NCBI RefSeq assembly: GCF_000255115.2
Contig: NC_018068.1
Location: forward strand, 4,373,977-4,437,976
DNA from: Desulfosporosinus acidiphilus SJ4
Lineage (GTDB): Bacteria; Bacillota; Desulfitobacteriia; Desulfitobacteriales; Desulfitobacteriaceae
DNA length: 64,000 bases
Direction of reading: 5' to 3'
Shown here: positions 32,476 to 57,956 of the stretch, in pieces
How the letters are laid out: each line of letters starts with the position of its first letter
Position numbering within the stretch: the stretch's first letter is position 1
Made by a program: the position numbers and the translations under genes
Notes under the pieces: generated by a model
What the model was told of the DNA's origin: nothing
The model's database searches: none
The model's input: only the letters and a program-made list of their open reading frames with translations

Positions 32476-33042
32476 TTATTTCAATAGACCTATGACATCC
32501 TGAATAACCCCGTCTTCGACAAATCTTTGATACCTGATCCTCTTAGGTTCTATAAAATAACCTAACAGTTTCTGTGTATCTACCAAGATATCTTCTAACT
32601 CTTCCTGAGAATAGGATTGATAACTACTCCATTTATACTCATTAGGTCTTAGCACCATCTCAGCTTTAACTGGATTAAGATGAATATATCGGCTAACTTC
32701 AAGAAAATAAGGATCGTTATCAACTAATTCCCAGCGAAAACGTCCTTGAAAAAGATGCCCGACAAAATGGTACTTCTGATTAAAGTAAACAGCATAGTCC
32801 TTATTTATGCGGTACATAACCTTAGATATATCAACGGTTGTTGTCTCAATAAGCAAATGAACATGGTTATCCATTAAGCAATAAGTGTGAAGTACGTAAG
32901 GAGTAATTGACCTTAACCGTTTCAAAACTATAAGATAAAATTCGCGATCCTCATCATCTCGAAAGATGTTCTGCTGATGATTGCCCCGACATGTAATATG
33001 ATATATATCTCCAGGGACCCAGCACCTCTTTTTCCTTGGCAT
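32476..33042 (-). CDS. REP-associated tyrosine transposase (RAYT, Y1 family)
   Basis: 188 residues. PGDIYHITCRGNHQQNIFRDDEDRE at the N-terminus, the HUH motif in MDNHVHLLIET and the catalytic Tyr region SKVMYRINKDYAVYFN, then HLFQGRFRW and the RYIHLNPVKA block are typical for RAYT/TnpA-REP. These single-strand nucleases act on REP palindromes. Five or more REP-like elements lie within 7 kb to the right, and two fragments of this gene are among them. The promoter shows a diverged copy of the palindromic operator of the MNT modules. Confidence 0.92.
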   Translation of the reverse strand: MPRKKRCWVPGDIYHITCRGNHQQNIFRDDEDREFYLIVLKRLRSITPYVLHTYCLMDNHVHLLIETTTVDISKVMYRINKDYAVYFNQKYHFVGHLFQGRFRWELVDNDPYFLEVSRYIHLNPVKAEMVLRPNEYKWSSYQSYSQEELEDILVDTQKLLGYFIEPKRIRYQRFVEDGVIQDVIGLLK

Positions 33043-37298: not shown

Positions 37299-37344
37299 AT
37301 GAAGACAATTCCTTATTGTTACTGAAGCTGTTTTATATCCGAAA

Positions 37345-37546
37345 TTGTCTCAATAAGCAAATGAACATGGTTATCCATCAAGCAATAAGTATGAAGTACG
37401 TAGGGAGTAATAGACCTAAACCGCTTCAAAACAATAAGATAAAATTCACGATCCTCATCATCTCGAAAGATGTTCTGCCGATGATTGCCCCGACATGTAA
37501 TATGATATATATCTCCAGGGACCTAGCATCTCTTTTTCCTTGGCAT
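37345..37546 (-). pseudogene. Fragment of the RAYT gene (N-terminal third)
   Basis: It repeats bases 32844-33045 of the intact RAYT gene with a few changes, from the start codon to the HUH region; similarity extends about 60 bases upstream of the start. The edge at ATTGTCTCAATAAGCAA is the same as in the 39832 fragment. Confidence 0.8.
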
Positions 37547-37962: not shown

Positions 37963-38040
37963 TGTCGAAACTTATAGGAAAAGAAAGGTTCCCGGAACCT
38001 GCCCGGAACGGTGACCACCGGGAGCCGTTCCGGCGAGTAC
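37963..38040 (+). repeat. REP-like palindromic element 4
   Basis: The fullest copy: TGTCGAAAC, GAAAAGAAAGGTTCCC, GGAACCTGCCCGGAACGG, TGACCACCGGGAGCCG, TTCCGGCGAGTAC in order. It borders the truncated end of the IS66-like element. Confidence 0.85.
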
Positions 38041-39831: not shown

Positions 39832-39910
39832 CCATTGTCTCAATAAGCAAGTGAACATGGTTATCCATTATGCCCGGAACGGGGACTACTGGGAGTCGTT
39901 CCGGCGAGTA
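39832..39910. repeat. RAYT fragment fused to partial REP
   Basis: Bases 39832-39870 repeat the RAYT gene from ATTGTCTCAATAAGCAA to TTATCCATTA; at 39871 the sequence switches to TGCCCGGAACGGGGACTACTGGGAG and ends TTCCGGCGAGTA, the right half of a REP. Confidence 0.75.
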
Positions 39911-39920
39911 AGGCTTTTGT

Positions 39921-41786
39921 TTAGCGTACGGGAACCATCTCAAGGTAAGGATGACTGAATAGGAGCCCATTGCTGTACTTCAAAATATGTTTGATAACAA
40001 TATCTGCTGCAGTCTCGATAGAAAACTTACTCGTATCGATCTCAATATCAGGATTATCCGGCGCTTCATAAGGACTAGAAATTCCGGTGAAATTGGGGAT
40101 CTCACCAGCTCTGGCTTTTTTGTAAAGTCCTTTTACATCTCTTTTTTCACATTCTTCGAGAGGTGTACTTACATATATTTCTACAAATTCTTTGCCAATA
40201 ATCCTTCTGGCGTTTTCCCGATCATCTTTATATGGCGAGATAAATGCCGTAAGAGTGATAATTCCTGCATCATTCATTAGCTTAGCGACTTCGGCAATCC
40301 TTCTGATATTTTCAATTCTGTCAGCCTCTTTAAAACCTAAATTTTTATTCAAACCGTGTCTGACATTATCACCATCAAGCAACATAGTATGTTTGCCCAT
40401 GGCAACGAGCCCTTTCTCTACTTCATTTGCAAGGGTAGACTTCCCGGAACCTGATAAGCCCGTGAACCATAGAGTCAGCGGTTTTTGGCACTTTTGTTGT
40501 GCACGGATTTCTCGAGTGATATCAGTATTCTGCCACACAACATTCGTTGATCTTCTTAATGAATGTTCAATAACCCCCAATGCGGAGGTTTTATTTGTAA
40601 TCTTGTCGATTAAACTAAGAGACCCTAATGACTTGTTATTCTTAATTTTATCAAACACTATATTTTCAGACAGAGCTATATCACATACTGCCAGCTCACT
40701 CCTGAATACACTATTGACACTAATCCTATTGCCAGTGTTTATGTCAATTTTATATTTAAGAGCCATTACCGTAGCTGTCAGAACTTTGGCCCCTACCCTA
40801 ATAAGGTAGCTTTTCCCAGCAACAAGCTCTATGTTATCCAACCAAAGGATTGTAGCGGTAAACATGTCAGCAATTTGAAGATTTGCTTCTTTAACTAATA
40901 CACATCCTCTTGCTACATCCACTTCTTTGTCAATGCAAATAGTAACTGCTTGCCCCATAAATGCCTGATCTTTTTTACTATCCGTATAAATACCTTTTAT
41001 TTTGGCCTTTTGTCTGCTCGGAAGAGTAAGAACCTCATCACCAACAGAAATGGTCCCAGATTCTATCTGTCCCTGAAGTTCTCTGAAGGAATCATTAAAT
41101 TTTAGGTTTGTCACCTTTTGGACTAACATGACAAAACTTTCGCTGTTCGATTTTGAGTTTGTTTCGATCTCTTCGAGATAAGAAAGTAAAGGTAACCCTT
41201 CATTCCAGGACATATGATTAGATGGCTTGATAACATTATCGCCTTCAGTTCCCGAAACCGGAATGAACTCGATACTTTTCATGTTAAAATCAGCTGTAAG
41301 ACTTAAAAAGTCCTGTCTAATTTCCCTAAATCTATAAAAATCATAATGAAGCAAATCCATCTTATTTACAACCACAACAATGTGATGAATGCCCATCAAA
41401 GTGCAAATTTTCAGTTGTCTTTTAAGTTGCTCAGACACACCTTGGACACCATCTAAGACAATAACAGCCAGATTTGAAAGAAAAGCCCCCAGAGCTATCT
41501 CACACAAAGTTTGCTCATCACCAGGAGCATCGGTAACAATAAAAGACTTAGTTGCGGTTTCATAATATCTACTTATATTATTTAAAATTTCTTGTTTGGT
41601 TAGCAAGTCGTTTAAAAAATAGTCAAAAGAATAGTTAATTTCTTCACCATGAATGCCAGTTTTGTTATCTGGTTCCGCGACAGAATTAGAAGTTATTAAT
41701 TTTTCCTTACCAAATATTCTTTCGACCAATGTTGATTTTCCGCTATTAACCGGTCCGCAGAAAATCAATTTAAGTACGGTTTTCAA
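39921..41786 (-). CDS. CysN-CysC fusion (divergent GTPase + APS kinase)
   Basis: 621 residues. The N-terminal EF-Tu-like domain has CGPVNSGKST (G1), DAPGDEQ in place of DTPGHEQ (G3) and NKMDLL (G4); the usual GITIDVAYR switch block is missing, so GTPase activity is doubtful. From about residue 440 a complete APS kinase follows: WFTGLSGSGKSTLANEVE, LDGDNVRHGLNKNLGF, ISPYKDDRENAR. It makes PAPS from APS. No cysD is present; APS might come from the dissimilatory ATP sulfurylase. The neighbours cysQ and a sulfotransferase suggest sulfation of the polymer. Confidence 0.88.
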   Translation of the reverse strand: MKTVLKLIFCGPVNSGKSTLVERIFGKEKLITSNSVAEPDNKTGIHGEEINYSFDYFLNDLLTKQEILNNISRYYETATKSFIVTDAPGDEQTLCEIALGAFLSNLAVIVLDGVQGVSEQLKRQLKICTLMGIHHIVVVVNKMDLLHYDFYRFREIRQDFLSLTADFNMKSIEFIPVSGTEGDNVIKPSNHMSWNEGLPLLSYLEEIETNSKSNSESFVMLVQKVTNLKFNDSFRELQGQIESGTISVGDEVLTLPSRQKAKIKGIYTDSKKDQAFMGQAVTICIDKEVDVARGCVLVKEANLQIADMFTATILWLDNIELVAGKSYLIRVGAKVLTATVMALKYKIDINTGNRISVNSVFRSELAVCDIALSENIVFDKIKNNKSLGSLSLIDKITNKTSALGVIEHSLRRSTNVVWQNTDITREIRAQQKCQKPLTLWFTGLSGSGKSTLANEVEKGLVAMGKHTMLLDGDNVRHGLNKNLGFKEADRIENIRRIAEVAKLMNDAGIITLTAFISPYKDDRENARRIIGKEFVEIYVSTPLEECEKRDVKGLYKKARAGEIPNFTGISSPYEAPDNPDIEIDTSKFSIETAADIVIKHILKYSNGLLFSHPYLEMVPVR

Positions 41787-41827
41787 GGCGATATACCCTC
41801 TTTTTCTTATTACCTATACACAGTTAA

Positions 41828-42621
41828 TTAAATCCATATATTCTCTTTTCTATTCACAACATAAAACCCTTTTTCATTCAGGATGTTTTCCCGATTATAA
41901 AGCATCTCGGTCCCATCCATTTGTCTAAAGATGCACCCAGCTTCTTCAACGATACACTGCATAGCTGCCGTATCCCATTCCGAAGTAAACCGAAACGATA
42001 ATATACATCTGCTTCACCTGAAGCTACCAAGCAGCCTTTTAGTGAGCTACCTGCCGATACGGTCTCTTTGATTTTGTCATTATTCACTTCAATTAGCTTA
42101 ACGTCTTTTTCTGATGAATGAGACTTGATGGATACCATGATAAGATTTTCAACTTTATCTGTAAATTGAAGTCTCCTTTTTTCCAGACTAATTTCTCCGT
42201 TTTGAACTTTCTCTATATATGATCCATAATCTTTACTGGCGAAATATAAGTCACCCGTAACAGGCACGTATATAACACCAATGATAATCTTATGCTTATA
42301 GGCTAATGCAATGTTGACCGTAAATTGACCATTTCTATTAATAAACTCCTTTGTCCCATCTAATGGATCAACAATAAAGCAAAAGTCATTAACTAATCGA
42401 CTTTTATCATCTCTAGATTCTTCCGATAATATTGCATATTCCGAATAATTAGCTTTAAGCCCTGTCATAATGATTTCATTAGATTTGCGATCAGCAAAAG
42501 TCAAAGGGGATTTGTCTTCTTTAACTTCAATATTAAAATTCGTCTCATAAATTTTTTGTATTTCGGTCCCAGCTTTTATTGCCAATGTATAAAATTCTTC
42601 CATTAATGTTTCTAGGTTCAT
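41828..42621 (-). pseudogene. cysQ: CysQ-like 3'(2'),5'-bisphosphate nucleotidase, frameshifted
   Basis: The frame from ATG 42621 shows the Li-sensitive phosphatase motifs: ILSEESRDD, FCFIVDPLDGTKEFINRNGQFTVNIAL. After VYYRFGL (about 41995) the frame loses the family; one base earlier the other frame gives TSEWDTAAMQCIVEEAGCIFRQMDG and ends at TAA 41828. WDTAA holds the last metal-binding Asp, so the frameshifted product (ends at 41878) is probably inactive. A sequencing error is possible. The intact enzyme would hydrolyse PAP left by sulfotransferases. Confidence 0.85.
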
Positions 42622-42736
42622 CTAAAAACTCCATATTCCATTACTTATGCTGGCATTTGACAGTTAACCACTGGCCGAGGCCGAAGATAATAAATTCCTT
42701 CAGGTTTACGCTAATGACCCCGACGAGAAATAATTA

Positions 42737-44335
42737 CTAATTTAGGAAGATCTTCACTGCCTTAATCCGTCCGACCTTCCTTCTCACCCAAGCGATCCCC
42801 TTGCACACTTCTTCAACCCGAAAAACATAAGTCAGTACCAGATAGACCAACAGCCCAGCCAGGACGCTTAAAAGGGTGCTGAGGATTAACCCTTTAAATC
42901 CAGCCCAATATCCGTGCAAAAGCGTATTAGCAAAATAAACAACTACTCCCGTAAGCCCTCCGGCCGCTAGGATCTGCAAGGCAAAGACCACTAAGGCCCG
43001 GTAAGGCAGAGGTGCCTTCTTCTGGAGCTTCAGCACGACAAAAAATCCGAGAAAAAGGAGGATTAAATTAGTCAATCCCGAAAGTGAGTTGGCAAGAGCA
43101 AGCCCCCGCTGCTGCAGTAAACGAACCAGGATGATACTTAAGAAAATATTAACCAATAAAGCCATGGCACCGGTTCCGACTGCCACAACCATCTTTTTCA
43201 AGGCAAAATAAACGTTCACCAGCATGCCTACCATCGACCCAGTTAAGAGCACACCCAGCAGATATGGGACGGTCTCTGCCGTAATCCGCGTATCCTCCGT
43301 ATCAAAAACTCCATGCTGAAAAAGCATCTGGACGAGAGGGAAACGGAGAACGTAGAGCCCGATAACAGCTGGAAAAATGACGAGTAAGAGGAGACGTACA
43401 GCTCGATTGAGCCCTTCGACCAAGCGGGGCCAATCCTCGAGGGCTGCCGCATTGACCAAGAGCGGATAGACTACCATACCCACCGCCCCGCTAAAGATAG
43501 TCTGGGGCAGGAGTACCAATTTGCTGGCAAAATACAGCGCAGAAACCCTTCCCGCCGGTAGCCCTGTCGCTAAGGTACGGTCGACGATGAGGTTCACCTG
43601 AGCCACCGCGGCTGAGACTATAAATGGAGTCAGCAAAGTAAACATCTCCCGCACCCCAGGGTCGTAAAAATCCAAAAGAAAGCGGTAGTGAAACCCATGC
43701 TTGCGAGCTGAAGGTAGTTGGAGCAAAAACTGGCCCAGCACCCCAAGAACAGATCCCGCTGCCAGTCCGTAAATGCCCCAAAACCTACCTAGCGTGAAGA
43801 TGCTACTGATAATAAACACATTAGAGATAAGTCCGATCGAAGATGGAGCAAGGAATGAGTGGTGAGCGTTGTTCACCCCCACCAGGATTCCCAGAAGCCC
43901 GCCGAAGAAAAGATTCGGCAGCATTATGCGAGTAAGCTCTACCGTGAGGTTTAATCGACTTCCAGCATAGCTTGGCGCAATCAGGTGAACGATGAACGGC
44001 GCAAAAAGGAAAAAGATTGTTCCCAACGCTCCAAGTAGTAAAATGAAAAGGGAAAAGACAATGTTTGTTGTGCGCCAGGCTTTCTCTTCCTCACCTTTAG
44101 CTAAGTAACTAGCATAGACCGTAATAAAAGTGCTAGTTAGCGAACCGCTGATTGTACCAGAAAAAAAAGTAGGAATAATTGCGGCAACAAGATAGGCATC
44201 TGTCATTCCAGAAGCCCCAAACGTATAGGCGATTGATGATTCCCGGATAAGCCCTAAAACAGTGCTAAATCCTATTATGAGTGCAACCATTAGTGCGTTA
44301 CGAGCAATAAATTTCTGTGTGGATAAAACCGTCAT
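42737..44335 (-). CDS. MurJ/MviN-like lipid flippase
   Basis: About 532 residues and 14 predicted spans. LGLIRESSIAYTFGASGMTDAYLVAAIIP in span 1-2 and ARIMLPNLFFGGLLGILVG-type blocks fit the MOP-superfamily MurJ proteins. ATG 44335 follows GGAGGAG; the frame runs 24 codons further without a ribosome site. Within this cluster it could move a lipid-linked repeat unit rather than lipid II, since the normal Wzx is reduced to a stub at 47526. Confidence 0.88.
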   Translation of the reverse strand: MTVLSTQKFIARNALMVALIIGFSTVLGLIRESSIAYTFGASGMTDAYLVAAIIPTFFSGTISGSLTSTFITVYASYLAKGEEEKAWRTTNIVFSLFILLLGALGTIFFLFAPFIVHLIAPSYAGSRLNLTVELTRIMLPNLFFGGLLGILVGVNNAHHSFLAPSSIGLISNVFIISSIFTLGRFWGIYGLAAGSVLGVLGQFLLQLPSARKHGFHYRFLLDFYDPGVREMFTLLTPFIVSAAVAQVNLIVDRTLATGLPAGRVSALYFASKLVLLPQTIFSGAVGMVVYPLLVNAAALEDWPRLVEGLNRAVRLLLLVIFPAVIGLYVLRFPLVQMLFQHGVFDTEDTRITAETVPYLLGVLLTGSMVGMLVNVYFALKKMVVAVGTGAMALLVNIFLSIILVRLLQQRGLALANSLSGLTNLILLFLGFFVVLKLQKKAPLPYRALVVFALQILAAGGLTGVVVYFANTLLHGYWAGFKGLILSTLLSVLAGLLVYLVLTYVFRVEEVCKGIAWVRRKVGRIKAVKIFLN

Positions 44336-44457
44336 TCCATTACTCCTCCGACCTAGTACTATTTTACAACTATACTTCCGAGGGGGGATACAGTCTGTGG
44401 TCAACATAAAATTGAAAAGAGACTTTTTGTTAAGTAAAGCTATAATCGTTCTATTGG

Positions 44458-45330
44458 CTAAAAGAGATTTCCATAACCCAATCTTTTAACCACCACATCG
44501 TCCTTAAGCTGTTTGTATACATTAACAAGTTCTTTGTCATTTAAAAAAGCGTATTTCCGGGATAATTGCGTAGTATCTACGATATTCCTTAGCTTGCCAC
44601 GATCAAAGTCTGTTCCAATAAAATCTGATAAGCTGTTTAAGTAATATTCAGGTCGTTCCACATAATCCTCGTATTGAATGCTCATCCAATCAGAGGAAAA
44701 TCTCTCTTCCATCAAGGAAGCCTGACAAATGTATTCCTTCCATAACCCAACTCCCCCATGAATCTCTGCTACTCTCATGGATTCAAGAATGTTCGTTTTA
44801 CCTAGTAAAAGTGCTTGTTTGATATATGTTTTTAATGAATGTTTAAATTCTTTTCTTATTGTTAATTCCCTTTTTCGGAGGCTCTCCGCTGTATCAATCG
44901 GATTTCTATAGATATGGACTATTTTAGCTGACGGAAATATCTCCTTCCAAAATTCAACGGTAAAGGTATTCCTCGGGTCCTTCCATCCCCACGGTATACT
45001 AAGCTTACTGATATTCCCATATCTTAGATAATGACGGAGGCCCATGTATTCAATTGCACGGAGTGATGACAAATGGTATGTAGTAACTTTAATTAGCTCT
45101 CGTTTAATATTGACATTTGAACTTATGCATTTAGTAAAATAACCCGGATTGTCCCAGCTAGCGCAACACTCCGATAAAATCCACGAATTTAACTTTAAAA
45201 AAAACACAGATTCGCAGTTCTCTTCTTTTTTGCAACCTACAAATAATCCTAAAGTTTCAAGATGTTTTGTTAGCATAGTGGTACCAGACCGATGCATTCC
45301 AAGAATAATAACGGGAGCTAAAAAATTCAT
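44458..45330 (-). CDS. PAPS-dependent sulfotransferase
   Basis: About 290 residues. The start LAPVIILGMHRSGTTMLTKHLE is the 5'-phosphosulfate-binding loop; GWKDPRNTFTVEFW and IFPSAKIVHIYRNPIDTAESLRKRE hold the 3'-phosphate-binding part (Arg and Ser). It should transfer sulfate from PAPS to the polysaccharide. ATG 45330 follows GTGAGG. With the CysN-CysC fusion and cysQ it makes a sulfation set within the polymer cluster. Confidence 0.85.
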   Translation of the reverse strand: MNFLAPVIILGMHRSGTTMLTKHLETLGLFVGCKKEENCESVFFLKLNSWILSECCASWDNPGYFTKCISSNVNIKRELIKVTTYHLSSLRAIEYMGLRHYLRYGNISKLSIPWGWKDPRNTFTVEFWKEIFPSAKIVHIYRNPIDTAESLRKRELTIRKEFKHSLKTYIKQALLLGKTNILESMRVAEIHGGVGLWKEYICQASLMEERFSSDWMSIQYEDYVERPEYYLNSLSDFIGTDFDRGKLRNIVDTTQLSRKYAFLNDKELVNVYKQLKDDVVVKRLGYGNLF

Positions 45331-45403: not shown

Positions 45404-46528
45404 TTATCCGTTTTTATTATAGTTGTTAAGAAGATTTTGGTAGCCTACTATAGTTTGTTTCGCAGCATTTTCCCATGTATAAAAATTCTTTACCCGTTCT
45501 TTTAGTCTTGGATTATTTTTTTCAATAACTGCTTGCTTAACAGCTAAAAATATTGACTGAGGATCTTCAGGTTCACAATAGTAAGCCATGTCTCCAAAAT
45601 AGTCGATTGTTGTTCCCCTGTTCGTTACTACAATATTACATCCACAAGAAGCTGCTTCTAAACTTACTAGACCGGGCGTTTCGTACCAGCTTGGTAAGAC
45701 ATGAACTTTTGCTTTTAAATACATCTCATAGACTTTATCATAAGAGACGTGACTTAAAAATACTGTATTATTATTTGCGTTATTAACTACCATTTGATAA
45801 TATTTCTTGTGATTTGGTGCAGCGTCTCCAACGATATACAACTTGTAGTTCGTGTTATATAATGCCCTAACTAAGTTCAATTGGTTTTTTCGAGGCTCAA
45901 TACGTCCAACGCATAAAATGGTATTTTCATAATCTAATTTAGCCTTTGATTTATTAAGTGAGGGCTCACAATTCAGCTGAGTTGTATCAATAGCATTTAC
46001 CACGACATTATAATTCGTCAAATTGCGTCCGAATTTTTTGTTTAGTTCTTTAATCTCTAACACAGAATTCGGCAGTAACCAGTCAGCCGATTCTAAAATT
46101 TTTTCTTGGATGCAGGAATATGTCTTTAAAACCATTTTTAAAGGCGGAAGTTTCTTTTCTTCTTTTATATATTTAACGTTCATTTTTATAGTTTCATAAC
46201 GATTAACTCCTAAGATTTTATTCAATGTTTTTCTTAGTTTAAATTGACCTTTCAATTCGAGTTCATCTGTAGGCCAATAAATTGTTGAAAGAATTACTGG
46301 TTTATTATATTTTTTTGCATTTAGTAATTGAAGATAAGTTTCCTGAACCCTTGTCAAATTAAAAAGATGCACAATATCATATTTTCTAACATCTTCAAAA
46401 ATACTTAATGATAAATCAACGTGAACATTGTATTTTTCTAAGTACTCTTTTGTTTTTAAAATTTGAATCGTATCTCCGCCCTTAGTCGAAAGTAAATTTG
46501 ATCTCGATTGCATCAAAATCTTCATCAC
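45404..46528 (-). CDS. Glycosyltransferase, GT4-like
   Basis: 374 residues with GT-B fold: an N-terminal domain starting KILMQSRSN and the sugar-nucleotide part TILCVGRIEPRKNQLNLVRAL ... LPSWYETPGLVSLEAASCGCNIVVTNRG with the E-x7-E signature. Overlaps the upstream GT2 gene by four bases (GTGATG; ATG 46525 is an alternative start). Cytoplasmic assembly of the repeat unit is inferred. Confidence 0.88.
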   Translation of the reverse strand: MMKILMQSRSNLLSTKGGDTIQILKTKEYLEKYNVHVDLSLSIFEDVRKYDIVHLFNLTRVQETYLQLLNAKKYNKPVILSTIYWPTDELELKGQFKLRKTLNKILGVNRYETIKMNVKYIKEEKKLPPLKMVLKTYSCIQEKILESADWLLPNSVLEIKELNKKFGRNLTNYNVVVNAIDTTQLNCEPSLNKSKAKLDYENTILCVGRIEPRKNQLNLVRALYNTNYKLYIVGDAAPNHKKYYQMVVNNANNNTVFLSHVSYDKVYEMYLKAKVHVLPSWYETPGLVSLEAASCGCNIVVTNRGTTIDYFGDMAYYCEPEDPQSIFLAVKQAVIEKNNPRLKERVKNFYTWENAAKQTIVGYQNLLNNYNKNG

Positions 46529-47484
46529 ATTTTAAACCTCTGATTAGAATTAGTCAGTTTACGTTCTTTCAATCCCATTCCAAACCCAGTGATATTAGCA
46601 GACAAAGTATTTAGAGCGTGGATCTCTTTATTTGTAATTTTCTTCATTAAAAGTACTATGAATAAAAAAATAAAATAATAGATTATTTGATACCAAGAAA
46701 AGTACTTTCCCATTATATATGTAAAGCATATTATACCATTATTATTTTTAACATCATTTTTTATGTGACCGAAATTGTTTGGTAGTAATCGATTAATTCC
46801 TAATTTCCTCGCATGCCTTTTCCATTGATTTAAGTTCAAAGAATGTTTATGTTCCAAATTCGGATGAACAATCTTAGCATTATTTACTACAAATATTGTA
46901 AAGCCATATTTTTTTGCTCGCAGGGAATACTCTATATCTTCGCCTCCAACAAAAAAATGTATATAATCATAAAACCCAATAACCCCGAGGACTTTCCTCG
47001 AAATGAGAACACCATTAGTTCCAAATGAATCGATAAAAAAATCCTTTGATTTAGAGCAAACGTAATAAAACTTTCCAAAAATACTTATTCTCATTCTAAA
47101 AAAACCCTGTTCGTTCATTTCTTGATCCAGAACTATGGGGCAAACAATTTCTGCTTTAGATATGTTAGCAGCTAATTGCTCTAAACAATCGTTATAGGGA
47201 ATACCATCTTGATCCAGTAACCAGATATAATCAGCCCCTTGGCAATAAGCCATTTGCATGCCTTTTGAAAAACCTTTTGCAGAACCACAGTTACCCTTCA
47301 TATCGACATATTCAATATTTAATGTACTATTCAAAACAACTTCCTCATTTTGTCCCTTTGTTTCTGTGCTATTATCTAAAACAATTAACTTATTTATCTT
47401 ATAAGTTTGATTTGTTAAAGCTTTTATTAATTCCATTAAATCTAAAGGTGAATTATATGCAACGATGACCGCAAAGACTTTCAC
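46525..47484 (-). CDS. Rhamnosyltransferase-like GT2 protein
   Basis: 319 residues. AVIVAYNSPLDLMELIKALTNQ, VLDNSTET and WLLDQDGIPYNDC (DxD) are GT2 features; the LDQD form is usual in rhamnosyltransferases. C-terminal hydrophobic segments (YQIIYYFIFLFIVLLM) may anchor it to the membrane. dTDP-rhamnose is made by the rfb genes of the same cluster. Confidence 0.85.
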   Translation of the reverse strand: MKVFAVIVAYNSPLDLMELIKALTNQTYKINKLIVLDNSTETKGQNEEVVLNSTLNIEYVDMKGNCGSAKGFSKGMQMAYCQGADYIWLLDQDGIPYNDCLEQLAANISKAEIVCPIVLDQEMNEQGFFRMRISIFGKFYYVCSKSKDFFIDSFGTNGVLISRKVLGVIGFYDYIHFFVGGEDIEYSLRAKKYGFTIFVVNNAKIVHPNLEHKHSLNLNQWKRHARKLGINRLLPNNFGHIKNDVKNNNGIICFTYIMGKYFSWYQIIYYFIFLFIVLLMKKITNKEIHALNTLSANITGFGMGLKERKLTNSNQRFKM

Positions 47485-47850: not shown

Positions 47851-48984
47851 TTAATTATTAAGAGCCTCTTTAATAACCTTTTCAAATTGTTCCAACCACT
47901 TATCCCAGTTCAATTCTCTCTCATATTTTTCCCTAGTTGAATACATCAGTTGCGAATAAATAAATGGATTATTATATAAATATTGAATTTTATTGGCATA
48001 ATCTAATCCTTTAGCTTTTAATTCGAACTTGAAACCATTAACATTATCTTCAACATAACTACCTACCCCCCCAGTATTAGTAGTTAAAATTGGTAGTGCA
48101 AAAGCGCTTGCCTCACAATATACAATTGCTGAACACTCCGCTCGAGTAGGTAAAATAAGGAAACTACTTTCCAAAAATAATTTATATAACTTTTCAAAGT
48201 CTTTATTATTATTTTTATTTAGAAAGGGAATAATATTTACCTTATCATCCAAAATATGGGGATTGCATCCAACAATAATCAAGTTAGTATTTATTCCTCT
48301 TTCATTTAGTGTTTTTAAAGTTTCTAAGGCTATACCACCACCTTTTCTTTCCCAATCCACCCCTACAAATAACAAATTTATGGTATTTAATTGCTTTTCC
48401 CATACAATTTCCTCTTTTGTAGGTATTTTTTCTAAATTTGGTCCAAATTTTAAGATTCTAACTTTATTTCCAGCTACATTATACTGTGCATTTGAAGAAT
48501 CAGCGGCCCATTTAGATGAAAGAACAATTCGTTTAGATTTATGCAAAGCATTAGACTCAATATCGTTTCCAGATATTATATTCGATTTGATCAAGTTCTC
48601 AAAAGAATGATAATAATTTAGCATTATTTGAAATGTAGCATCACTTAAGTAAATAATTGGCACGTTTGTCTCAACATAAGCAATTTCTGAAGACGCAAAG
48701 GGAGCAATTATAATATCATAATCTCCTTCTTTTATTAACTTTGTATAAATCCTCCCTAAATTCCGTGAAAAAAAGTGAGTATGACTAATCATGTATTTCC
48801 TTTTGAGGACTTTTATAACAAAATATTTTTTAATTAACAATGAAAATTGAATAATAGATATATTAGCAGGTCCAATCCATTCAATATTGTATTTATTTTT
48901 AAGTAAATGAAAAATAGTATAAATTGTTCCAGATGCGCTTGTTTTATCAATAGGATTATTCGTAGTTATAAATCCAATTTTCAT
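47851..48984 (-). CDS. Glycosyltransferase, GT4-like
   Basis: 377 residues. The start MKIGFITTNNPIDKTSASGTIYTIF and the C-terminal domain with LLFVGVDWERKGGGIALETLKTLNE and LPTRAECSAIVYCEASAFALPILTTNTGGVGSYV (E-x7-E region) indicate a GT-B retaining transferase. ATG 48984 follows AAAGGAGG. The DNA is very AT-rich, typical for transferred polysaccharide genes. Confidence 0.85.
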   Translation of the reverse strand: MKIGFITTNNPIDKTSASGTIYTIFHLLKNKYNIEWIGPANISIIQFSLLIKKYFVIKVLKRKYMISHTHFFSRNLGRIYTKLIKEGDYDIIIAPFASSEIAYVETNVPIIYLSDATFQIMLNYYHSFENLIKSNIISGNDIESNALHKSKRIVLSSKWAADSSNAQYNVAGNKVRILKFGPNLEKIPTKEEIVWEKQLNTINLLFVGVDWERKGGGIALETLKTLNERGINTNLIIVGCNPHILDDKVNIIPFLNKNNNKDFEKLYKLFLESSFLILPTRAECSAIVYCEASAFALPILTTNTGGVGSYVEDNVNGFKFELKAKGLDYANKIQYLYNNPFIYSQLMYSTREKYERELNWDKWLEQFEKVIKEALNN

Positions 48985-49168
48985 TACTATCCTCCTTTCT
49001 GACATGCTGTCTAAGAATGATGTCGATATTTTATTTGTATTTCATTGAGGGAGTGCTGCTATCTTGCAAATTCAGAGCACTTGTCAGGGCTTCAAGAGTA
49101 TCCGTCCCGTTGAGATAGCATTGGATAAAATAGCAATTTATTAAGCGTACTGAATTACTCTGGGATTG

Positions 49169-49300
49169 TTAAATTTGACATGGAACCCCTCGACGGATGC
49201 TTCAATTGGGTCGAGGGCTATGGCTCAAAAGATGTTCATTTGGGGTAAGCCCTATCCCTTAGCATTAGGGTACCATCCGCCGCGCCCATATCAAATTTAA
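49169..49300. repeat. 132-bp element with 15-bp terminal inverted repeats
   Basis: TTAAATTTGACATGG (49169-49183) and CCATATCAAATTTAA (49286-49300) pair with one mismatch. Inside, CCCTCGAC and GTCGAGGG form a hairpin. It lies in the 340-bp gap before the GT4 gene and is much richer in GC than its surroundings, like a small non-autonomous mobile element. The rest of the gap shows no gene. Confidence 0.5.
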
Positions 49301-49327
49301 TTTGGGGTTTGAGGACGTATAAATGCA

Positions 49328-50662
49328 CTATAGCCTAGAACACGAATCACTGACCGAATTAGGTGTTCTTTTGAGCGATATAGGTGCTCTGCTTGCGTGT
49401 GACAAATGCTCAGTTTCACCGAGATCACTGATCTGGTGAAACGAAATATTCATTTTATTATGGATTCCAAATAAAACGCTACTTAACAAACTTGCTGTAA
49501 AAAGTATTTCGAAGCATCCAGTTTGACTATAGATACCAGTTACTACCAGTGTCAAAAATGTAATGGATACTAAAAGCGCTCTTATTATTTTAACAAAAGC
49601 ATTATATTGTACATGTTCTACTTCTTTTAAAAAATCATTAAATCTATATAAAAATAAAAAAAACATTAACAATCCAAATAGCCCAGTCTTTATTAAAATC
49701 ATATAATATCCATTATGTGTTATAACCACTTCATCATAAACCTGACCATTTAAATCTATATTTATGCCTAAATCGACCAAAGATCCTAAACCATATCCAA
49801 ATAACTTCTTAGTTATAGTTCCGTTTTCGAACATTTCTTTAGTCCTATATGCTTCATATCCCCGCCAATTTTTATTAATCTCGGCAATATCAGAATAATC
49901 AGAAGGGCTTATTTCATTAATAGAGTTAGCAATTTTATTATAAAACACAAATACTGGAGATTCTTTCATACCTGTTAAAAATATAGAAAATGAACCTAAA
50001 ATGATTAAAGTCGTTAATAAAAAAATTAGCGATTTAAATTTTTTTTTACTTCTGTTAAAAATCAAGAAAAAGACAAGAATTATTGATACTCCAAATACAA
50101 CTCTAGATAAGTATGAAATTATAGAACATAATAATATAAATATAATAATTCTTTTTAATATTTTGTTGTATAAATTTTTACTATTAAAAATTAAACTTAT
50201 AGCAATTACTTCTATATAACTATCTAGACCACCATATTCTCTTATACTATTATAATCACCTAAAACTGAAGGTTTATATATAAATTTACCAATATGAATT
50301 AAAGAAATAATTATTGCAATATTGATTATTATTTTGGTTACAGTTTCTACGTCATTTATTTTTTTGGTTAACATAAAACCAGTCATGAGAATAATTATTG
50401 GATTTGCAAAATAAAAAATATCATGTTGAATATAATAGTTTTGATTATTCATACTATTTATTAAACCGATTATTAATAAGAGTATATTAGGTAATAATAA
50501 AGCAAACATTTTCTTTTGAATTTTAAATTTATTTCTTATTAATAAAATCAGACTAACTAATAACATTACAAAAAAGTTAATTTTATATGAAAAGAAATAA
50601 AAACTAAAGAATATTAAATATATTACATTTTGTTCCGTTTTTCTTTTATCTATATAGATCAT
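49328..50662 (-). CDS. Wzy/O-antigen-ligase-like polymerase
   Basis: 444 residues with about 10-12 spans and a large loop (residues about 235-310) before YGLGSLVDLGINIDLN ... ITHNGYYMILIKTGLFGLLMFFLFL. The HNGY motif after the loop is typical for Wzy/WaaL-type proteins. It probably polymerises the repeat units outside the membrane. The last 35 residues (ISDLGETEHLSHASRAPISLKRTPN...) are polar, have different base use and contain a palindrome, so the natural C-terminus may be lost. It overlaps the upstream GT2 gene by 17 bases. Confidence 0.8.
   Translation of the reverse strand: MIYIDKRKTEQNVIYLIFFSFYFFSYKINFFVMLLVSLILLIRNKFKIQKKMFALLLPNILLLIIGLINSMNNQNYYIQHDIFYFANPIIILMTGFMLTKKINDVETVTKIIINIAIIISLIHIGKFIYKPSVLGDYNSIREYGGLDSYIEVIAISLIFNSKNLYNKILKRIIIFILLCSIISYLSRVVFGVSIILVFFLIFNRSKKKFKSLIFLLTTLIILGSFSIFLTGMKESPVFVFYNKIANSINEISPSDYSDIAEINKNWRGYEAYRTKEMFENGTITKKLFGYGLGSLVDLGINIDLNGQVYDEVVITHNGYYMILIKTGLFGLLMFFLFLYRFNDFLKEVEHVQYNAFVKIIRALLVSITFLTLVVTGIYSQTGCFEILFTASLLSSVLFGIHNKMNISFHQISDLGETEHLSHASRAPISLKRTPNSVSDSCSRL
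49413..49442. repeat. 30-bp palindrome at the end of the polymerase gene
   Basis: GTTTCACC(G)AGATCA and TGATCT(G)GTGAAAC mirror each other with only the G/G positions and centre unpaired. It lies within the foreign-looking 3' end. Confidence 0.6.
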
Positions 50663-51512
50663 TTTTAATCTCCAAGACTTTTAGAAAAATATGTTTTTCA
50701 ATTATACTTAATTCAGCAAACAGATGAAAAAGTAATTTTTGCAAAAAGTTTATTTTAAGATAGTAATTATTGTATATCCTTGTACTATTTATTAATGTTT
50801 TGTATTTTTTTATCAAATTCAAATTCCTATTTATTGATACAGAGTGGCTATGATAGTAAGTAATATCAGGAATAAGCACATTCTTATAACCATGTTGTTT
50901 CAATCTATAACCTAAAACATTTTCTTCCATATATAAAAAAGTTCTTTCGTCAAAATAATTAATATTTTTAATAGCTTCGGTACTAATCATAAAAAATGAA
51001 CCTGGCAAAACTTCAACCAAAATGTATTTACTAGTTTTCCTAGCTTTCTTATTCTCTCTTTGGAAAAATCTATTTAGGAAAAACAAAGATTTAATTGTAT
51101 CAAAAAAAGTAGGCAATTTCCAGGATTCCAAAGTTCCATTCTGCTCACTAATCATCCTAGGCGCTACTATGCCGACCTTTTCAATTTCATTATAAACTTT
51201 TATCATTTCGTTTATAATTTTATTGTCAAAGTGTACATCAGGATTAGCAATAATAAAGTAACTTATACCGAAATTCCTTAAGGCGTATTTTATTCCAAAA
51301 TTATTTCCATACGCATAGCCGCCATTTCTTTCTGTTTTGATAATATCTATTTTTTGAGACTTTGATTGCATTAATACTGAAAAGGAATTATCAGTTGAAC
51401 AGTTATCAACAACAATAATTTTAAAAAATGAATCATAGTCTTTAACTGAGTTTATAAAGTTTCTAGTCGTGTCTAAGTCATTGTAATTTAATACTACTAG
51501 TGCTATTTCCAT
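50646..51512 (-). CDS. GT2 glycosyltransferase (rhamnosyltransferase-like)
   Basis: 288 residues. IALVVLNYNDLDTTRNFINSV, VVDNCSTDNS, GYAYGNNFGIKYAL and FIIANPDVHFD (metal-binding region) are GT2 motifs; SFFMISTEAIKNINYFDERTFLYMEE is the second half. The start ATG 51512 lies in the end of the preceding gene (35-base overlap). Confidence 0.87.
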   Translation of the reverse strand: MEIALVVLNYNDLDTTRNFINSVKDYDSFFKIIVVDNCSTDNSFSVLMQSKSQKIDIIKTERNGGYAYGNNFGIKYALRNFGISYFIIANPDVHFDNKIINEMIKVYNEIEKVGIVAPRMISEQNGTLESWKLPTFFDTIKSLFFLNRFFQRENKKARKTSKYILVEVLPGSFFMISTEAIKNINYFDERTFLYMEENVLGYRLKQHGYKNVLIPDITYYHSHSVSINRNLNLIKKYKTLINSTRIYNNYYLKINFLQKLLFHLFAELSIIEKHIFLKVLEIKNDLYR

Positions 51513-52731
51513 TTTTTGTCACTTCATCTCTTTGTATAAAGTAAGAAAAAAATATACTTTCATATCTTTCAATAATGTATTCCCAACCATAACAGTCATT
51601 GATTCTCTTTCTCGCAAGCGTGCTCAATTCATGAGTTTCTTTAGGACTCATTTTGTCTGCTACATCGATTAATTTAGCAAGACTCATATCTTCCTTCATC
51701 CAATAAATAGCCCCATCTTCACCGACTTCCCGATTAAATCCTACATCCAGTAATAAGTTCAGATCTGTGCTGCCAAGAGCTTCCAATAAGCTTGGATTAG
51801 TTCCTCCCACTTCATGACCGTGAATATAACCATAAGCATTTTCTCTAATTTTCGTGAGTAATTGCTGTTCATATACTGTACCAACAAATTTGATTCTTTT
51901 ATCGTTTTCAAACCCAGTTGCTAATTTAAGTTTATCATAAAAAGGATTATTTCTAATTTCAGTAATTATAACAATATCTTTATCTGTGTTCGATCTCATA
52001 AACTCTCGAATGATTGTCTCATAATTGTTTTCCGGTACAAATCTTCCGACAACAAGATAGTACTCATGAGGTCTGACATTCTTGTTTTGATACCAAGCCA
52101 CAACTTTTTGATCGTCATCCATTAATTTTGACTTAGTAGTTTCTGATCCATAAGCAATAAAAGTTGTGTTCGGATTGAATTTTTTATACCGTGTCTTAAT
52201 ATACTTTTGAATATTCTTACTGTCACAAATTAAAACATCCGAATACTTTACCATTAGCATTTCCGAAATTCTCCAATACCTCCTGACTAGTGCATTCCAC
52301 TTAGCCCTTTTCCATTCATGCCCATCGGGATTAACATAAAGTCGCCCGCCAAGTTTTTCAATCTTCGCCTTATAATACCCAATGAAAGGACCGATACGGC
52401 AAGCAAGCACATAAATAATTGGGTGCTGAATTTTGTTAGACTTGATATACGCTAAACAATACTTCAAAGACTCCACATCATAAAAAATTGCTTTGGCTGG
52501 TCCTATATTATAACCTTTAATATCAAAACATTTTGCACCATTATGGGAAAACGTACGCAATTTCTCATTATCATCCACAAGACACGAAACGTGATACTGA
52601 ATATCAGGAGATTTTTGATAAAGAGTAAGCTTTTCTACAAAGGTTTCAAATCCGCCGTACCTAGCCGGAATTCCCTTTGAGCCTATAATAAAAACGTGTT
52701 GTTTTTCTATTTCGGTCATCTTAGTACACAA
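51478..52731 (-). CDS. DUF1972 rhamnosyltransferase (Cps2T/RgpA-like)
   Basis: 417 residues. FIIGSKGIPARYGGFETFVEKLTLY is the DUF1972 start of beta-1,4-rhamnosyltransferases such as Cps2T; the rest is GT4 (YLVVGRFVPENNYETIIREF ... YIHGHEVGGTNPSLLEALGS). It usually adds the second sugar, rhamnose, to the lipid-linked primer. The start is TTG 52731 behind GAGG; ATG 52719 is the alternative. It directly follows the rfb genes. Confidence 0.9.
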   Translation of the reverse strand: MCTKMTEIEKQHVFIIGSKGIPARYGGFETFVEKLTLYQKSPDIQYHVSCLVDDNEKLRTFSHNGAKCFDIKGYNIGPAKAIFYDVESLKYCLAYIKSNKIQHPIIYVLACRIGPFIGYYKAKIEKLGGRLYVNPDGHEWKRAKWNALVRRYWRISEMLMVKYSDVLICDSKNIQKYIKTRYKKFNPNTTFIAYGSETTKSKLMDDDQKVVAWYQNKNVRPHEYYLVVGRFVPENNYETIIREFMRSNTDKDIVIITEIRNNPFYDKLKLATGFENDKRIKFVGTVYEQQLLTKIRENAYGYIHGHEVGGTNPSLLEALGSTDLNLLLDVGFNREVGEDGAIYWMKEDMSLAKLIDVADKMSPKETHELSTLARKRINDCYGWEYIIERYESIFFSYFIQRDEVTKNGNSTSSIKLQ

Positions 52732-52779: not shown

Positions 52780-53334
52780 TCAGAACTTTATCATATCCGT
52801 TAATCCCAGCCACTTTTGATCCTTTTCACTCATTATGAGTTCTATGCCCTCGAGGATCGGCCACTTAATTCCAATTTCAGGATCATTCCAAGCTAAACCG
52901 CACTCATCACCCGGATGATAAAAATCAGTAACCTTATAACAGAATTCTGCTTCATCGGATAGAACCAAAAAACCATGCGCAAACCCCTCACTGATATAGA
53001 ACTGCTTCTTGTTTTCCGCTGTCAACTCCACACCGTACCATATACCATACGTTGCCGAATTGTGTCTCAGATCGACAGCAACATCAAAAACAGAACCTCG
53101 AATTACACGAACCAACTTGCCCTGAGGAAAATGTTTCTGGTAATGTAGACCACGCAGAACTCCTTTTACAGACATTGACTGGTTATCCTGAACAAATACC
53201 ATGTCTAATCCTGCTTCATGCATATCCTTCTGATTATATGTTTCCATAAAGTACCCTCTACTGTCTCCATGAACAGCAGGCTCTATTATATATAGTCCCT
53301 CAATCGGACATGTGCTTACTTTTATCTGTCCCAT
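52780..53334 (-). CDS. rfbC: dTDP-4-dehydrorhamnose 3,5-epimerase
   Basis: 184 residues. GDSRGYFMETYNQKDM, FVQDNQSMSVKGVLRGLHYQ (with the catalytic His) and FYISEGFAHGFLVLSDEAEFCYKVTDFY are RmlC motifs. Third step of dTDP-L-rhamnose synthesis. Confidence 0.96.
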   Translation of the reverse strand: MGQIKVSTCPIEGLYIIEPAVHGDSRGYFMETYNQKDMHEAGLDMVFVQDNQSMSVKGVLRGLHYQKHFPQGKLVRVIRGSVFDVAVDLRHNSATYGIWYGVELTAENKKQFYISEGFAHGFLVLSDEAEFCYKVTDFYHPGDECGLAWNDPEIGIKWPILEGIELIMSEKDQKWLGLTDMIKF

Positions 53335-53346: not shown

Positions 53347-54210
53347 TTACAACTTTATTTCTTTTAGATAACGGCTCAACGCATCCTGCCATGAAGGCAA
53401 TCTATCGAACCCATTATCAGTTAACTTCTTCTTACTCATCCGGCTGTTAGAAGGTCTTTTTGCCTTTGCTGGATAAGTGCTACTATCTACTGGATCAATC
53501 GAAATATTCTTGTAGATAGGGTCTATTTCTGCTGCCTGTCTAAAAATTTTACAGGCAAACTCATACCAAGAACAAAAGCCTTCATTCGTGGCATGATAAC
53601 GACCATATTTTTCAGTCTCAACCATATCAATCAGAAGACGAGCAAGATCGAATGTATAAGTAGGAGAACCAATCTGATCATCTACAATATTAAGATGAGT
53701 GTTCGTCTTACCTAGATTTAACATTGTTTTAACAAAGTTCTTGCCATTAACACCAAATACCCATGCAATACGAACGATGAAGTATTTTGATAAATTACTT
53801 TCTACTACGACCTCGCCTTCATACTTCGTTTGTCCATATACATTAAGTGGATTTCGTTCATCATCTGGAAGCCATGGTCTAGTGCCCTGCCCGTTAAAAA
53901 CATAGTCTGTAGATAAATATAACATCTTAATATCGAGTTTTTTGCAGATCTTTACAATGTTTTCTGTCCCAGTCGCATTAGCAAGTCTGCATTTTTCTAT
54001 ATTATCCTCTGCCGCATCTACCTCTGTCCATGCAGCACAATGGATTACTGCATTAGGGTTGGCCTCCTCAATTATTTTTTCCACGGATTCCGAATCCGTG
54101 ATATCCATCTCCTGAATATCAACACCAATTGCCGTGTAGCCTCGATTTTTTATTTCATTAACGACATCAAAACCGAGTTGTCCCTTTGCACCGGTAACAA
54201 GTATTTTCAT
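53347..54210 (-). CDS. rfbD: dTDP-4-dehydrorhamnose reductase
   Basis: 287 residues. ILVTGAKGQLGFDVV (NADPH binding), MLYLSTDYVFNGQG with YGQTKYEGE (catalytic Tyr-Lys) and FVKTMLNLGKT are RmlD motifs. It lies 12 bases before rfbC. Last step to dTDP-L-rhamnose. Confidence 0.96.
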   Translation of the reverse strand: MKILVTGAKGQLGFDVVNEIKNRGYTAIGVDIQEMDITDSESVEKIIEEANPNAVIHCAAWTEVDAAEDNIEKCRLANATGTENIVKICKKLDIKMLYLSTDYVFNGQGTRPWLPDDERNPLNVYGQTKYEGEVVVESNLSKYFIVRIAWVFGVNGKNFVKTMLNLGKTNTHLNIVDDQIGSPTYTFDLARLLIDMVETEKYGRYHATNEGFCSWYEFACKIFRQAAEIDPIYKNISIDPVDSSTYPAKAKRPSNSRMSKKKLTDNGFDRLPSWQDALSRYLKEIKL

Positions 54211-54262: not shown

Positions 54263-55291
54263 TTAACTAACTATTTTGTTACCATACGTATTCCCAAGGT
54301 ACTTAGTATACTCCCCGGAGAGAATTTCTTCCCACCACTTCTTATTATCTAAATACCACTGAATAGTCTTTCTGATACCATCCTCAAATTTTGTTTCGGG
54401 AAACCAACCGAGCTCATTATAGATTTTGGTGGGATCGATAGCATAACGCATATCATGACCTGGACGGTCAGTAACAAATGTTATTAGACTTTCAGGCTTG
54501 TCTAACTCACGAAGAATAGTTTTTACTACCTCGAGATTAGTTCTTTCATTATGCCCACCAATATTATAGACTTCGCCCAAGCGGCCTTTCCTCATTACCT
54601 GATCTATTGCTGAGCAATGATCCCTCACATAGAGCCAGTCTCTTACATTCTCGCCTTTACCATAAACAGGTAAAGATTGATCAGCTAAAGCTCGGCTAAT
54701 CATAAGAGGTATCAACTTCTCCGGAAAATGGTATGGCCCATAATTGTTTGAACATCGTGTAATCGATACAGGCAGTTTATATGTTCTATAGTAGGCAAGT
54801 ACCAATAAATCTGCACCAGCTTTACTAGAGCTATAAGGGCTACTTGTATAAAGTGGGGTATCCTCAGTAAAGAATAGATCAGGACGATCTAATGGAAGGT
54901 CGCCGTATACTTCGTCCGTAGAAACTTGATGGAAACGAGTAATACCATATTTCCTGCATGCATCCATTAGAACTCCAGTACCGATCACGTTAGTCTCAAG
55001 GAAAATACCTGGATTTTCTATACTTCTATCCACATGACTCTCGGCCGCAAAATTGACTACAATGTCCGGACGTTCTTCTTCAAATATCTTAAAAATAGCT
55101 TTTCGATCAGAAATATCCGCCTTAACAAACTTAAAATTGGGATTATTCATAGCCTCTTCAAGTGTTGAAAGGTTTCCGGCGTATGTTAGACTATCGAGAC
55201 AAATGATTTGGTCCTCTGGGTTCTCTTGTAATTCAAAGTAAACGAAATTGGAGCCAATAAAACCTGCTCCCCCGGTTACAATAATTTTCAC
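54263..55291 (-). CDS. rfbB: dTDP-glucose 4,6-dehydratase
   Basis: 342 residues. IIVTGGAGFIGSNFVYF (NAD binding), FAAESHVDRSI, VSTDEVYGDL and YSSSKAGADLL (Tyr-Lys) are RmlB motifs. It makes dTDP-4-keto-6-deoxyglucose from the rfbA product. Confidence 0.97.
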   Translation of the reverse strand: MKIIVTGGAGFIGSNFVYFELQENPEDQIICLDSLTYAGNLSTLEEAMNNPNFKFVKADISDRKAIFKIFEEERPDIVVNFAAESHVDRSIENPGIFLETNVIGTGVLMDACRKYGITRFHQVSTDEVYGDLPLDRPDLFFTEDTPLYTSSPYSSSKAGADLLVLAYYRTYKLPVSITRCSNNYGPYHFPEKLIPLMISRALADQSLPVYGKGENVRDWLYVRDHCSAIDQVMRKGRLGEVYNIGGHNERTNLEVVKTILRELDKPESLITFVTDRPGHDMRYAIDPTKIYNELGWFPETKFEDGIRKTIQWYLDNKKWWEEILSGEYTKYLGNTYGNKIVS

Positions 55292-55304: not shown

Positions 55305-56204
55305 TTATATTGCGTGTATCTTGTCTAGGTATTTTCCACCCAGTACATCCATTAAATAAGCCCCATACCCGTTTTTCTTAAGTGGGTCAATTGACTTAAT
55401 TAACTGTTCTCTATCAATCCAACCGTTTAAATAGCCAATTTCCTCAAGACAACCGATTTTTCGATGCTGATGTGTCTCCACAGTCTTCACGAAATTCGTA
55501 GCTTCTACAAGACTCTCGTGAGTACCCGTATCTAGCCAAGTAAAGCCTTGGCCAAGCAATTCAACATTCAGTTCCCCGTTTTGAAGATAAATGCGATTGA
55601 GATCTGTTATTTCAAGTTCACCTCTAGCCGAGGGCGATAAACTTTTTGCATATTCAACTACACGATTATCATAAAAATACAATCCAGTTACACAATAGTT
55701 TGATTTGGGGTTTAAAGGCTTCTCTTCTATTGAAATGGCTTTCCCATTCTTATCAAACTCAACAATACCAAAACGTTCGGGGTCATCTACATAATACCCA
55801 AACACTGTAGCAATCTTATCGTGAGCGTAAGTCACAGCATTTTTTAGCCGCTCTTTAAGACCATGACCAGCAAAGATATTATCCCCTAGAACCATTGCTA
55901 CATTGTCATCACCAATAAATTTCTCACCTATAATAAAAGCCTGTGCCAGGCCGTCAGGACTGAGTTGAACTGCATAAGATAGTCTTATACCAAACTGATC
56001 GCCGTCGCCCATAAGTGCTCTAAATCTAGGAGTATCGGCAGGAGTGCTTATAATCAAAATATCCCTTATACCTGCATCCATTAATACACTTAACGGATAG
56101 TAAATCATTGGCTTGTCGTAGATTGGCAACAACTGCTTAGAAGTAACCATTGTTAATGGATAAAGTCTGGTACCGGAGCCTCCGGCTAGCACTATACCTT
56201 TCAT
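55305..56204 (-). CDS. rfbA: Glucose-1-phosphate thymidylyltransferase
   Basis: 299 residues. [44 protein letters not shown] and [13 protein letters not shown] are RmlA motifs. ATG 56204 follows AAGGGGA; the frame runs eight codons further. First step of dTDP-rhamnose synthesis and first gene of the rfbABDC run. Confidence 0.97.
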
Positions 56205-56273
56205 ATCTAAGATTCCCCTTAACATCATTTCATAAGTATTGATTCATTAGGTTTAGATATCAAGTCTATGTTT

Positions 56274-57665: not shown

Positions 57666-57956
57666 AATCTTTCCTCCCCAAGGTAACCTGTCTCTATACA
57701 TACTTGGTAAAAGCCTATCCGACTTGACAACTCCGCCTACATCTCTTACTGCTTATTTCACTGATTACGGTCTAACGTAACCAAGGTGATGCAATAGGAG
57801 CAGTCATCATTCAAGGCTTAGAAACAAGGGCAACTATGTTCTTCGGCCTTTTAGATCACCATTTTCTATCACATGAAATATTTCAAAGCTCTGATTGACA
57901 GACTCTAATTTCTCCCAAGCCCGCTCTATAGCGGATTACAGAACTTCAGACATCTC

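Follow-up and report, generated by a model that had tools for sequence, protein, structure and literature searches.

The 64,000-nucleotide stretch of Desulfosporosinus acidiphilus SJ4 analyzed here (the window; G000:C3:4373977-4437976) contains a polysaccharide cluster ending in genes for a sulfotransferase, a flippase, a CysQ-like phosphatase and a CysN-CysC fusion protein. The genome, of the Desulfosporosinus type, comprises 4.99 Mb in three contigs. Probably, these genes sulfate a glycan and form the downstream end of a cluster of the Wzy type. The module would use 3'-phosphoadenosine 5'-phosphosulfate (PAPS) made from adenosine 5'-phosphosulfate (APS), with Sat supplying the APS and the CysN half of the fusion being obsolete. 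The first-pass annotation had listed the genes in this order, on one strand and alongside rhamnose (rml) genes and glycosyltransferases, and the open reading frames (ORFs) together with Pfam and subfamily models agree with it. Its description of the host as a sulfate reducer is backed by DsrA (541.9 bits) and Sat (417.9 bits) in the same genome. Most of the observation holds, whereas the mechanism has to be corrected; sulfation of the surface polymer is a prediction from gene content. In this report, G and L numbers denote genomes and loci; the window belongs to G000.

The APS kinase half of the fusion had been called intact, and it is a complete C-terminal domain well above the model cut-offs (PF01583, 235.1 vs 21.1 bits; TIGR00455, 249.7 vs 138.7 bits). 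It carries the P-loop GLSGSGKS and the DGDN, FISPY and lid segments, whose roles in this half we take to be those known from APS kinases. The CysN half aligns with 1zun_B over its whole length and retains the P-loop, NKMD (G1, G4 and G5 are present) and domains II and III. However, the G2 segment reads EILNN where other CysN proteins have GITID, and the G3 segment reads DAPGD instead of DxPGH. The fusion as annotated is therefore present and its kinase half is whole, whereas G2 and the histidine of G3 are missing from its CysN half. The CysN half narrowly misses the cut-off of TIGR02034 (327.1 vs 336.1 bits), and the CysNC subfamily model matches the fusion over its whole length with 638.1 bits at a cut-off of 715. 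The CysN model gives 551 bits for G410 and 540 bits for G175; the apsK model gives 247–253 bits for the window, G015, G410 and G175.

The fusion of G015 (Desulfosporosinus nitroreducens 59.4F, NZ_JAMHFY010000004.1) is 81% identical to that of the window over residues 1–615. Its G2 motif is lost at the same place and an arginine replaces the G3 histidine. The GTPase domain is absent from the fusion frame of G019, and in G017 the match starts near residue 390, so that approximately the last 20 CysN residues remain. A truncation of the window fusion by the adjacent IS66 remains was considered, but the end looks natural, since the proteins of G015 and G019 end alike with little beyond the kinase. 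The fusion of G033 (L031:9092-10945) has lost even the P-loop lysine of its CysN half. If the present reading holds, the label "bifunctional sulfate adenylyltransferase/APS kinase" would be wrong for a fusion of this kind.

CysD, the partner of CysN, was not found in the genome. Searches of the window and of L028, L029 and L030 with two CysD queries gave nothing better than an E-value of 0.14, and no CysD lies near the sulfation block of G015, G019 or G017. In an alignment of 25 CysN genes, all 20 that have CysD keep G1–G3 complete, and none of the 5 that lack it does; the latter are those of the window, G015, G017, G019 and G033, with the GTPase domain absent in G017 and G019. G040 is counted as having CysD, its gene being cut by a contig edge; G266 (L073) and a Solihabitans locus (L061), both with CysD, and most low-identity CysN matches of the phylum sample lie outside this alignment. 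In the phylum sample, CysN-type matches occur in 48 of 398 genomes (counted from tables) and 46 of these have CysD. The two exceptions are the window genome and G167, in which the gene starts at contig base 3.

Within the family, none of the 21 Sat-bearing genomes has an unbroken CysD, compared with 9 of the 24 that lack Sat (Fisher p 0.0018, uncorrected for kinship). Therefore, Sat is the likely reason for the loss of CysD. Mutual exclusion of Sat and CysD as a general rule was rejected; it holds in the family and fails in the phylum sample. In G002 (L054:6714-9931), where Sat is present, a CysD gene with two stop codons lies near a solo APS kinase; this is likely a further case of CysD loss.

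The two halves of the fusion evolve under different constraint. The p-distance ratio of G domain to CysC is 0.42–1.02 in eight CysD-bearing pairs, 3.52 for window–G015, 2.67 for window–G410 and 2.36 for G015–G410; for G033 it is 1.77 against G007 and 1.10 against G422. Window and G410 are 46, 58, 61 and 80% identical in the G domain, domain II, domain III and CysC, respectively, and the pattern is reversed between G175 and G410 (82, 64, 62 and 61%). The ratio of nonsynonymous to synonymous substitution rates (dN/dS) between window and G015 is 0.32 for the G domain (confidence interval 0.20–0.51), 0.19 for domains II and III (0.11–0.31) and 0.055 for CysC (0.025–0.096). The G domain of G175–G255 has 0.037. 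The CysC half is under strong constraint in each of the six pairings of window, G015, G019 and G017 (0.038–0.076). These values are rough, since dS between window and G015 differs between the CysN half (0.43) and the CysC half (0.93), which suggests recombination; those with G410 and part of G175–G255 are saturated and were not used. By these ratios, constraint on CysN is weaker, not absent, and a structural role is thus possible. CysN can nevertheless be lost, as it is absent from G019 and G017.

The search for the same gene set in related genomes was partly successful. A similar block recurs, within other glycan loci, in G015 (sulfotransferase of PF00685/PF13469, Wzx, CysQ, fusion), in G019 (Wzx, CysQ and a shortened fusion, with a PF13469 sulfotransferase approximately 2.6 kb further) and in G017 (PF03567 sulfotransferase, Wzx, CysC), but the last has only a CysQ remnant and the sulfotransferases differ, none having a BLAST match to that of the window at 1e-5. 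Glycosyltransferases and Wzy proteins in these three genomes were named by reading translations; family scans covered sulfotransferases, flippases and a few others. As far as gene content tells, CysQ-CysC stays while sulfotransferase and flippase vary between blocks. Rhamnose genes were discarded as an obligatory partner; there is no rml match (BLAST, 1e-5) in the 19.9-kb stretches of the three genomes, a range that excludes the outer flanks of G017 and G019 (L063, L064). One contig of G033 combines a sulfotransferase, rml genes, MurJ and the degenerate fusion, with no CysQ. A scan of genome contigs with two peptide patterns returned two loci, one of which is the G015 contig.

In a CysC tree of 32 rows the window, G015, G019 and G017 group together (support 96/94), with a weakly supported sister, G410 (88/62). 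This group nests in a clade (99/96) whose other members, G410, G175, G255, G230 and G132, all have CysD, and the fusions of G007 and G033 from the same family fall apart from it. The tree omits the solo CysC of G014 and G002 (no usable frame), others such as L085, L088 and L089, and G416, whose CysC part aligns poorly; G011 forms a long branch. In G175 and G255 (L098, L099), both outside the family, CysQ-CysD-CysNC lie amid glycan-type genes with all three G motifs intact. Their CysQ and CysNC are 59–60% and 55–56% identical to those of G015. Since these two loci keep CysD between CysQ and CysNC, its loss looks derived. In the simplest history, a block of this type would have entered the genus and lost CysD, after which the CysN half began to decay.

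The sulfotransferase was rightly assigned to the PAPS-dependent type, with domains above the cut-offs (PF13469, Sulfotransfer_3, 66.7 vs 27 bits; PF00685, 41.4 vs 22 bits). Among the 44 other family genomes it has one weak match (G007, 30.8 bits). A plasmid-borne module was considered; the sulfotransferase has a single 21% match among 72,556 plasmid records. The annotated flippase does lie between sulfotransferase and CysQ; it is of the MurJ family, however, rather than a Wzx of PF01943. Its GC content (0.46–0.51) exceeds that of its neighbors, and it is 79% identical over 534 residues to the MurJ in the rhamnose/CysNC cluster of G033 (L031).

A CysQ-like gene is present as well, but as assembled it is frameshifted and split over two frames (42621-41986 and 41995-41831). 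The ORF matches Inositol_P with 142 bits and TIGR01331 incompletely, to model position 204 of 250, with 176.6 bits at a cut-off of 228.8. CysQ of this kind occurs in 3 of 45 family genomes (G000, G015 and G019), and in G015 (238.3 bits) and G019 (239.4 bits) it is whole and above the cut-off. The frameshift either is genuine or stems from the assembly; the part behind it is 89% identical to G015 over 55 residues, which argues for a recent lesion or a sequencing error. Removal of 3'-phosphoadenosine 5'-phosphate (PAP) by this CysQ is doubtful, the gene being frameshifted. PAP could be cleared otherwise, since the genome encodes a DHH-DHHA1 protein matching the NrnA model (138 bits, below the cut-off of 350) and an inositol-monophosphatase relative at another locus.

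A mechanism consistent with these findings would begin with APS production by Sat, the ATP sulfurylase that serves dissimilatory sulfate reduction. The C-terminal kinase of the former CysNC fusion would phosphorylate APS to PAPS, and the sulfotransferase would pass the sulfuryl group to a sugar, either in the lipid-linked repeat unit or in the polymer. Flippase and Wzy would export and polymerize the glycan. If cysQ is truly broken, NrnA or a different phosphatase would probably clear PAP. The CysN half would no longer provide the GTPase subunit for an ATP sulfurylase of the CysND type; as Sat makes both superfluous, CysD would have been lost while CysN degenerates. Sat is the probable APS source because the CysN half has neither its CysD partner nor its GTPase motifs. 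The earlier proposal that the set makes PAPS, sulfates the glycan and clears PAP stands insofar as a PAPS-using sulfation module is the best reading; APS synthesis by the fusion is unlikely and PAP clearance meets the frameshift. This reading is preferred because a similar block recurs in three more genomes of the genus with flippase, glycan genes and a sulfotransferase, and because the cluster of Vibrio sp. KMM 8419, whose sulfated polymer has been solved, follows the same logic (PMC11641403).

We further propose, tentatively, that Sat feeds glycan sulfation and that a PAPS module acquired with CysD was stripped: CysD is gone, and CysN has become a non-GTPase scaffold in window and G015 and was deleted in G019 and G017, so that the APS kinase and an exchangeable sulfotransferase are left. 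If this is true, polymer sulfation is directly coupled to sulfate respiration. Nature would here provide an example of a GTPase enzyme of two parts becoming purposeless once an unrelated enzyme gives the same product, with sister genomes as intermediate stages. Sulfate-reducing Firmicutes would, in addition, be candidates for having sulfated polymers on their surface.

Several findings weigh against the proposed module and its dependence on Sat. The CysD-bearing, motif-intact fusion of G007, from another branch, scores only 340.2 bits with the CysN model and 632.1 with the CysNC model, below 715, so a low CysN score alone proves little; G015, with its lost motifs, passes the CysN cut-off at 356.8 bits. 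In the phylum sample, 7 of 47 genomes with CysD also have Sat. Conversely, G033, a 92% complete draft, lacks CysD and its CysN is degenerate, yet there is no Sat match. The G-domain dN/dS for window–G015 lies below 1 with its whole confidence interval although both have already lost G2, so the domain does not drift freely. A single-sequence structure prediction of the sulfotransferase gave no usable fold (predicted local distance difference test 35.5), and the acceptor is putative. Finally, the cysQ frameshift and the flanking IS66 remains raise the possibility of a decaying locus.

This last explanation, in which the sulfation genes are relics and little or no polymer is sulfated now, is unlikely. 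IS66 pieces and Y1-transposase relics lie immediately downstream, CysN decays and cysQ of G017 is down to remnants; but the kinase half is strongly constrained in all six pairs, the frames of sulfotransferase, flippase and glycosyltransferases are open, and the sequence behind the cysQ frameshift is well conserved. We consider it about equally improbable that the sulfotransferase acts on a target outside the cluster (a lipid, glycolipid, peptide or cell-wall glycan) and that its position is incidental. Both PF13469 and PF00685 cover a broad range of proteins, a polyketide-synthase protein is the closest chain of solved structure (E-value only 0.02), and in G032 a sulfotransferase and CysC sit in a lasso-peptide-like cluster with Asn-synthetase and HPr-kinase. 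On the other hand, sulfotransferase, flippase and glycan genes occur near the CysC fusion in four genomes, a counterpoint weakened by the sulfotransferases of the other three, which have no BLAST match to that of the window (1e-5), one of them being from another Pfam family.

Somewhat less probable still is a repurposed CysN half that senses GTP for the APS kinase or supports it as a scaffold without catalysis. The retained P-loop, NKMD and domains II and III and the G-domain constraint are in line with such a role, but G019 and G017 keep the kinase without the GTPase domain or nearly all of CysN, respectively. The self-sufficient set of the first-pass annotation, with a working ATP sulfurylase subunit, APS kinase and a CysQ clearing PAP, is very improbable. 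The whole-length CysNC match and the motifs G1, G4 and G5 would fit it, but a working CysN half was rejected because of the missing CysD and the lost G2 threonine and G3 histidine, and cysQ is broken as assembled. Thus, the module fed by Sat is the preferred reading.

Several known systems come close to the reduced PAPS module proposed for this sulfate reducer. The capsule of Vibrio sp. KMM 8419 contains sulfated L-rhamnose, and its cluster combines cysD, cysN, cysC and sulfotransferases with a rhamnose operon, as the window combines PAPS genes, a sulfotransferase and rml genes; unlike that of the window, whose sulfated polymer is a prediction, the Vibrio system is Gram-negative, has CysD, exports by an ABC transporter and has a solved polymer structure (PMC11641403). 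The synechan (xss) cluster of Synechocystis 6803, which makes a demonstrated sulfated polymer, likewise holds sulfotransferases (two there) in a Wzx/Wzy cluster, but it is cyanobacterial, and PAPS and APS kinase are absent as terms from the main text (PMC8205485). That paper's statement that sulfated polysaccharides among bacteria are solely cyanobacterial is contradicted by the Vibrio capsule. Rhizobial NodQ is also a CysN-CysC fusion serving oligosaccharide sulfation; it partners the CysD homologue NodP, whereas the window fusion has no CysD and a damaged CysN half (PMC1780047). CysN/NodQ and the unrelated ATPS1 are described there as functional analogues. In Actinoplanes, two sulfotransferases and a gene of the sulfate adenylyltransferase/APS-kinase family are reported to be needed for normal sporangia, and Pontiella strains are reported as makers of sulfated polymers. 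A review on polysaccharide sulfotransferases mentions neither Firmicutes nor Bacillota. Among the matches listed from full-text literature, with British spelling and most subscription journals outside its scope, none reported sulfated glycans from a sulfate reducer of the Firmicutes. Among those listed for CysN, CysD and the fusion (including PMC1780047, PMC11641403 and PMC11625862), no title or abstract treats an orphan CysN.

The cluster is listed in Table 1. PF02397, PF04932, a MurJ-type flippase, PF02706, a CpsD-like ATPase and PF19567 were found, in agreement with a Wzy-dependent cluster. Gaps between the last glycosyltransferase, sulfotransferase, flippase, CysQ and CysNC are 61, 50, 115 and 91 bases, respectively.

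Table 1. Genes of the cluster in their order along the minus strand (window coordinates).
Feature	Coordinates	Strand	Remarks
Wzz chain-length protein	60192-60896	minus	
CpsD-like ATPase	59457-60176	minus	
CpsB/CapC	58579-59412	minus	
Initiating sugar-phosphate transferase	56274-57701	minus	PF02397 with PF13727
RmlA-type nucleotidyltransferase	55305-56228	minus	PF00483; RmlA name from neighbors and our reading
RmlB	54263-55291	minus	
RmlD	53347-54210	minus	
RmlC	52780-53334	minus	
Beta-1,4 rhamnosyltransferase, Cps2T-type	51478-52731	minus	649 bits, above cut-off
Glycosyltransferase	50646-51512	minus	PF00535; rhamnosyltransferase likeness below model cut-off
Wzy-type polymerase	49328-50662	minus	PF04932, 37.4 bits (cut-off 31.7)
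Glycosyltransferase	47851-49005	minus	PF00534
Glycosyltransferase	46525-47484	minus	PF00535
Glycosyltransferase	45404-46528	minus	PF00534
PAPS-type sulfotransferase, 294 residues	44458-45342	minus	PF13469
MurJ-family flippase	42737-44407	minus	Pfam MurJ, 255 bits
CysQ-like PAP phosphatase, shortened by frameshift	41878-42621	minus	Remainder with EWDTAA motif in other frame, 41995-41831
CysN-CysC fusion, 621 residues	39921-41786	minus	Degenerate CysN, residues 2–406; intact APS kinase, 436–602

A gap of 322 bases (49006-49327) lies behind the Wzy-type gene, whose product has an odd-looking C-terminal tail; an old insertion is possible. Further upstream, an ORF of 107 residues (57957-58280) combines the start of a ManC-like nucleotidyltransferase with part of the initiating sugar transferase. 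It shares a 155-base repeat, 73% alike, with 56510-56664, which is read as a relic of recombination.

A second sulfation locus of the same genome (L033:9667-17070, C3 at ~4.56 Mb) contains a solo APS kinase with Wzy-type and ManC-type proteins. Its sulfotransferase is a Sulfotransfer_2 domain fused to a Wzt_C domain, and its kinase groups with CysC of G007 and G033 (100/99). A locus of G014 (L034) resembles it, with a stop inside the CysC match. In G032 (L035:45-18604), an APS kinase, a sulfotransferase and Asn-synthetase, ABC-transporter, HPr-kinase-like and PF14907 proteins form one cluster, adjoined by a second set of similar-looking ORFs; the sulfotransferase is the protein that was family-scanned there. 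This cluster looks like one for lasso-peptide biosynthesis that brings along its own means of sulfation, and HPr kinase and sulfotransferase are mentioned for some lasso clusters (PMC4289311).

Beside the window's sulfation genes, the IS66 remains are flanked on both sides by a repeated fragment resembling a Y1 transposase and by a 40-base repeat that forms a hairpin (37344-37383, 38000-38039 and 39834-39910). A Y1_Tnp gene is located at 32476-33042.

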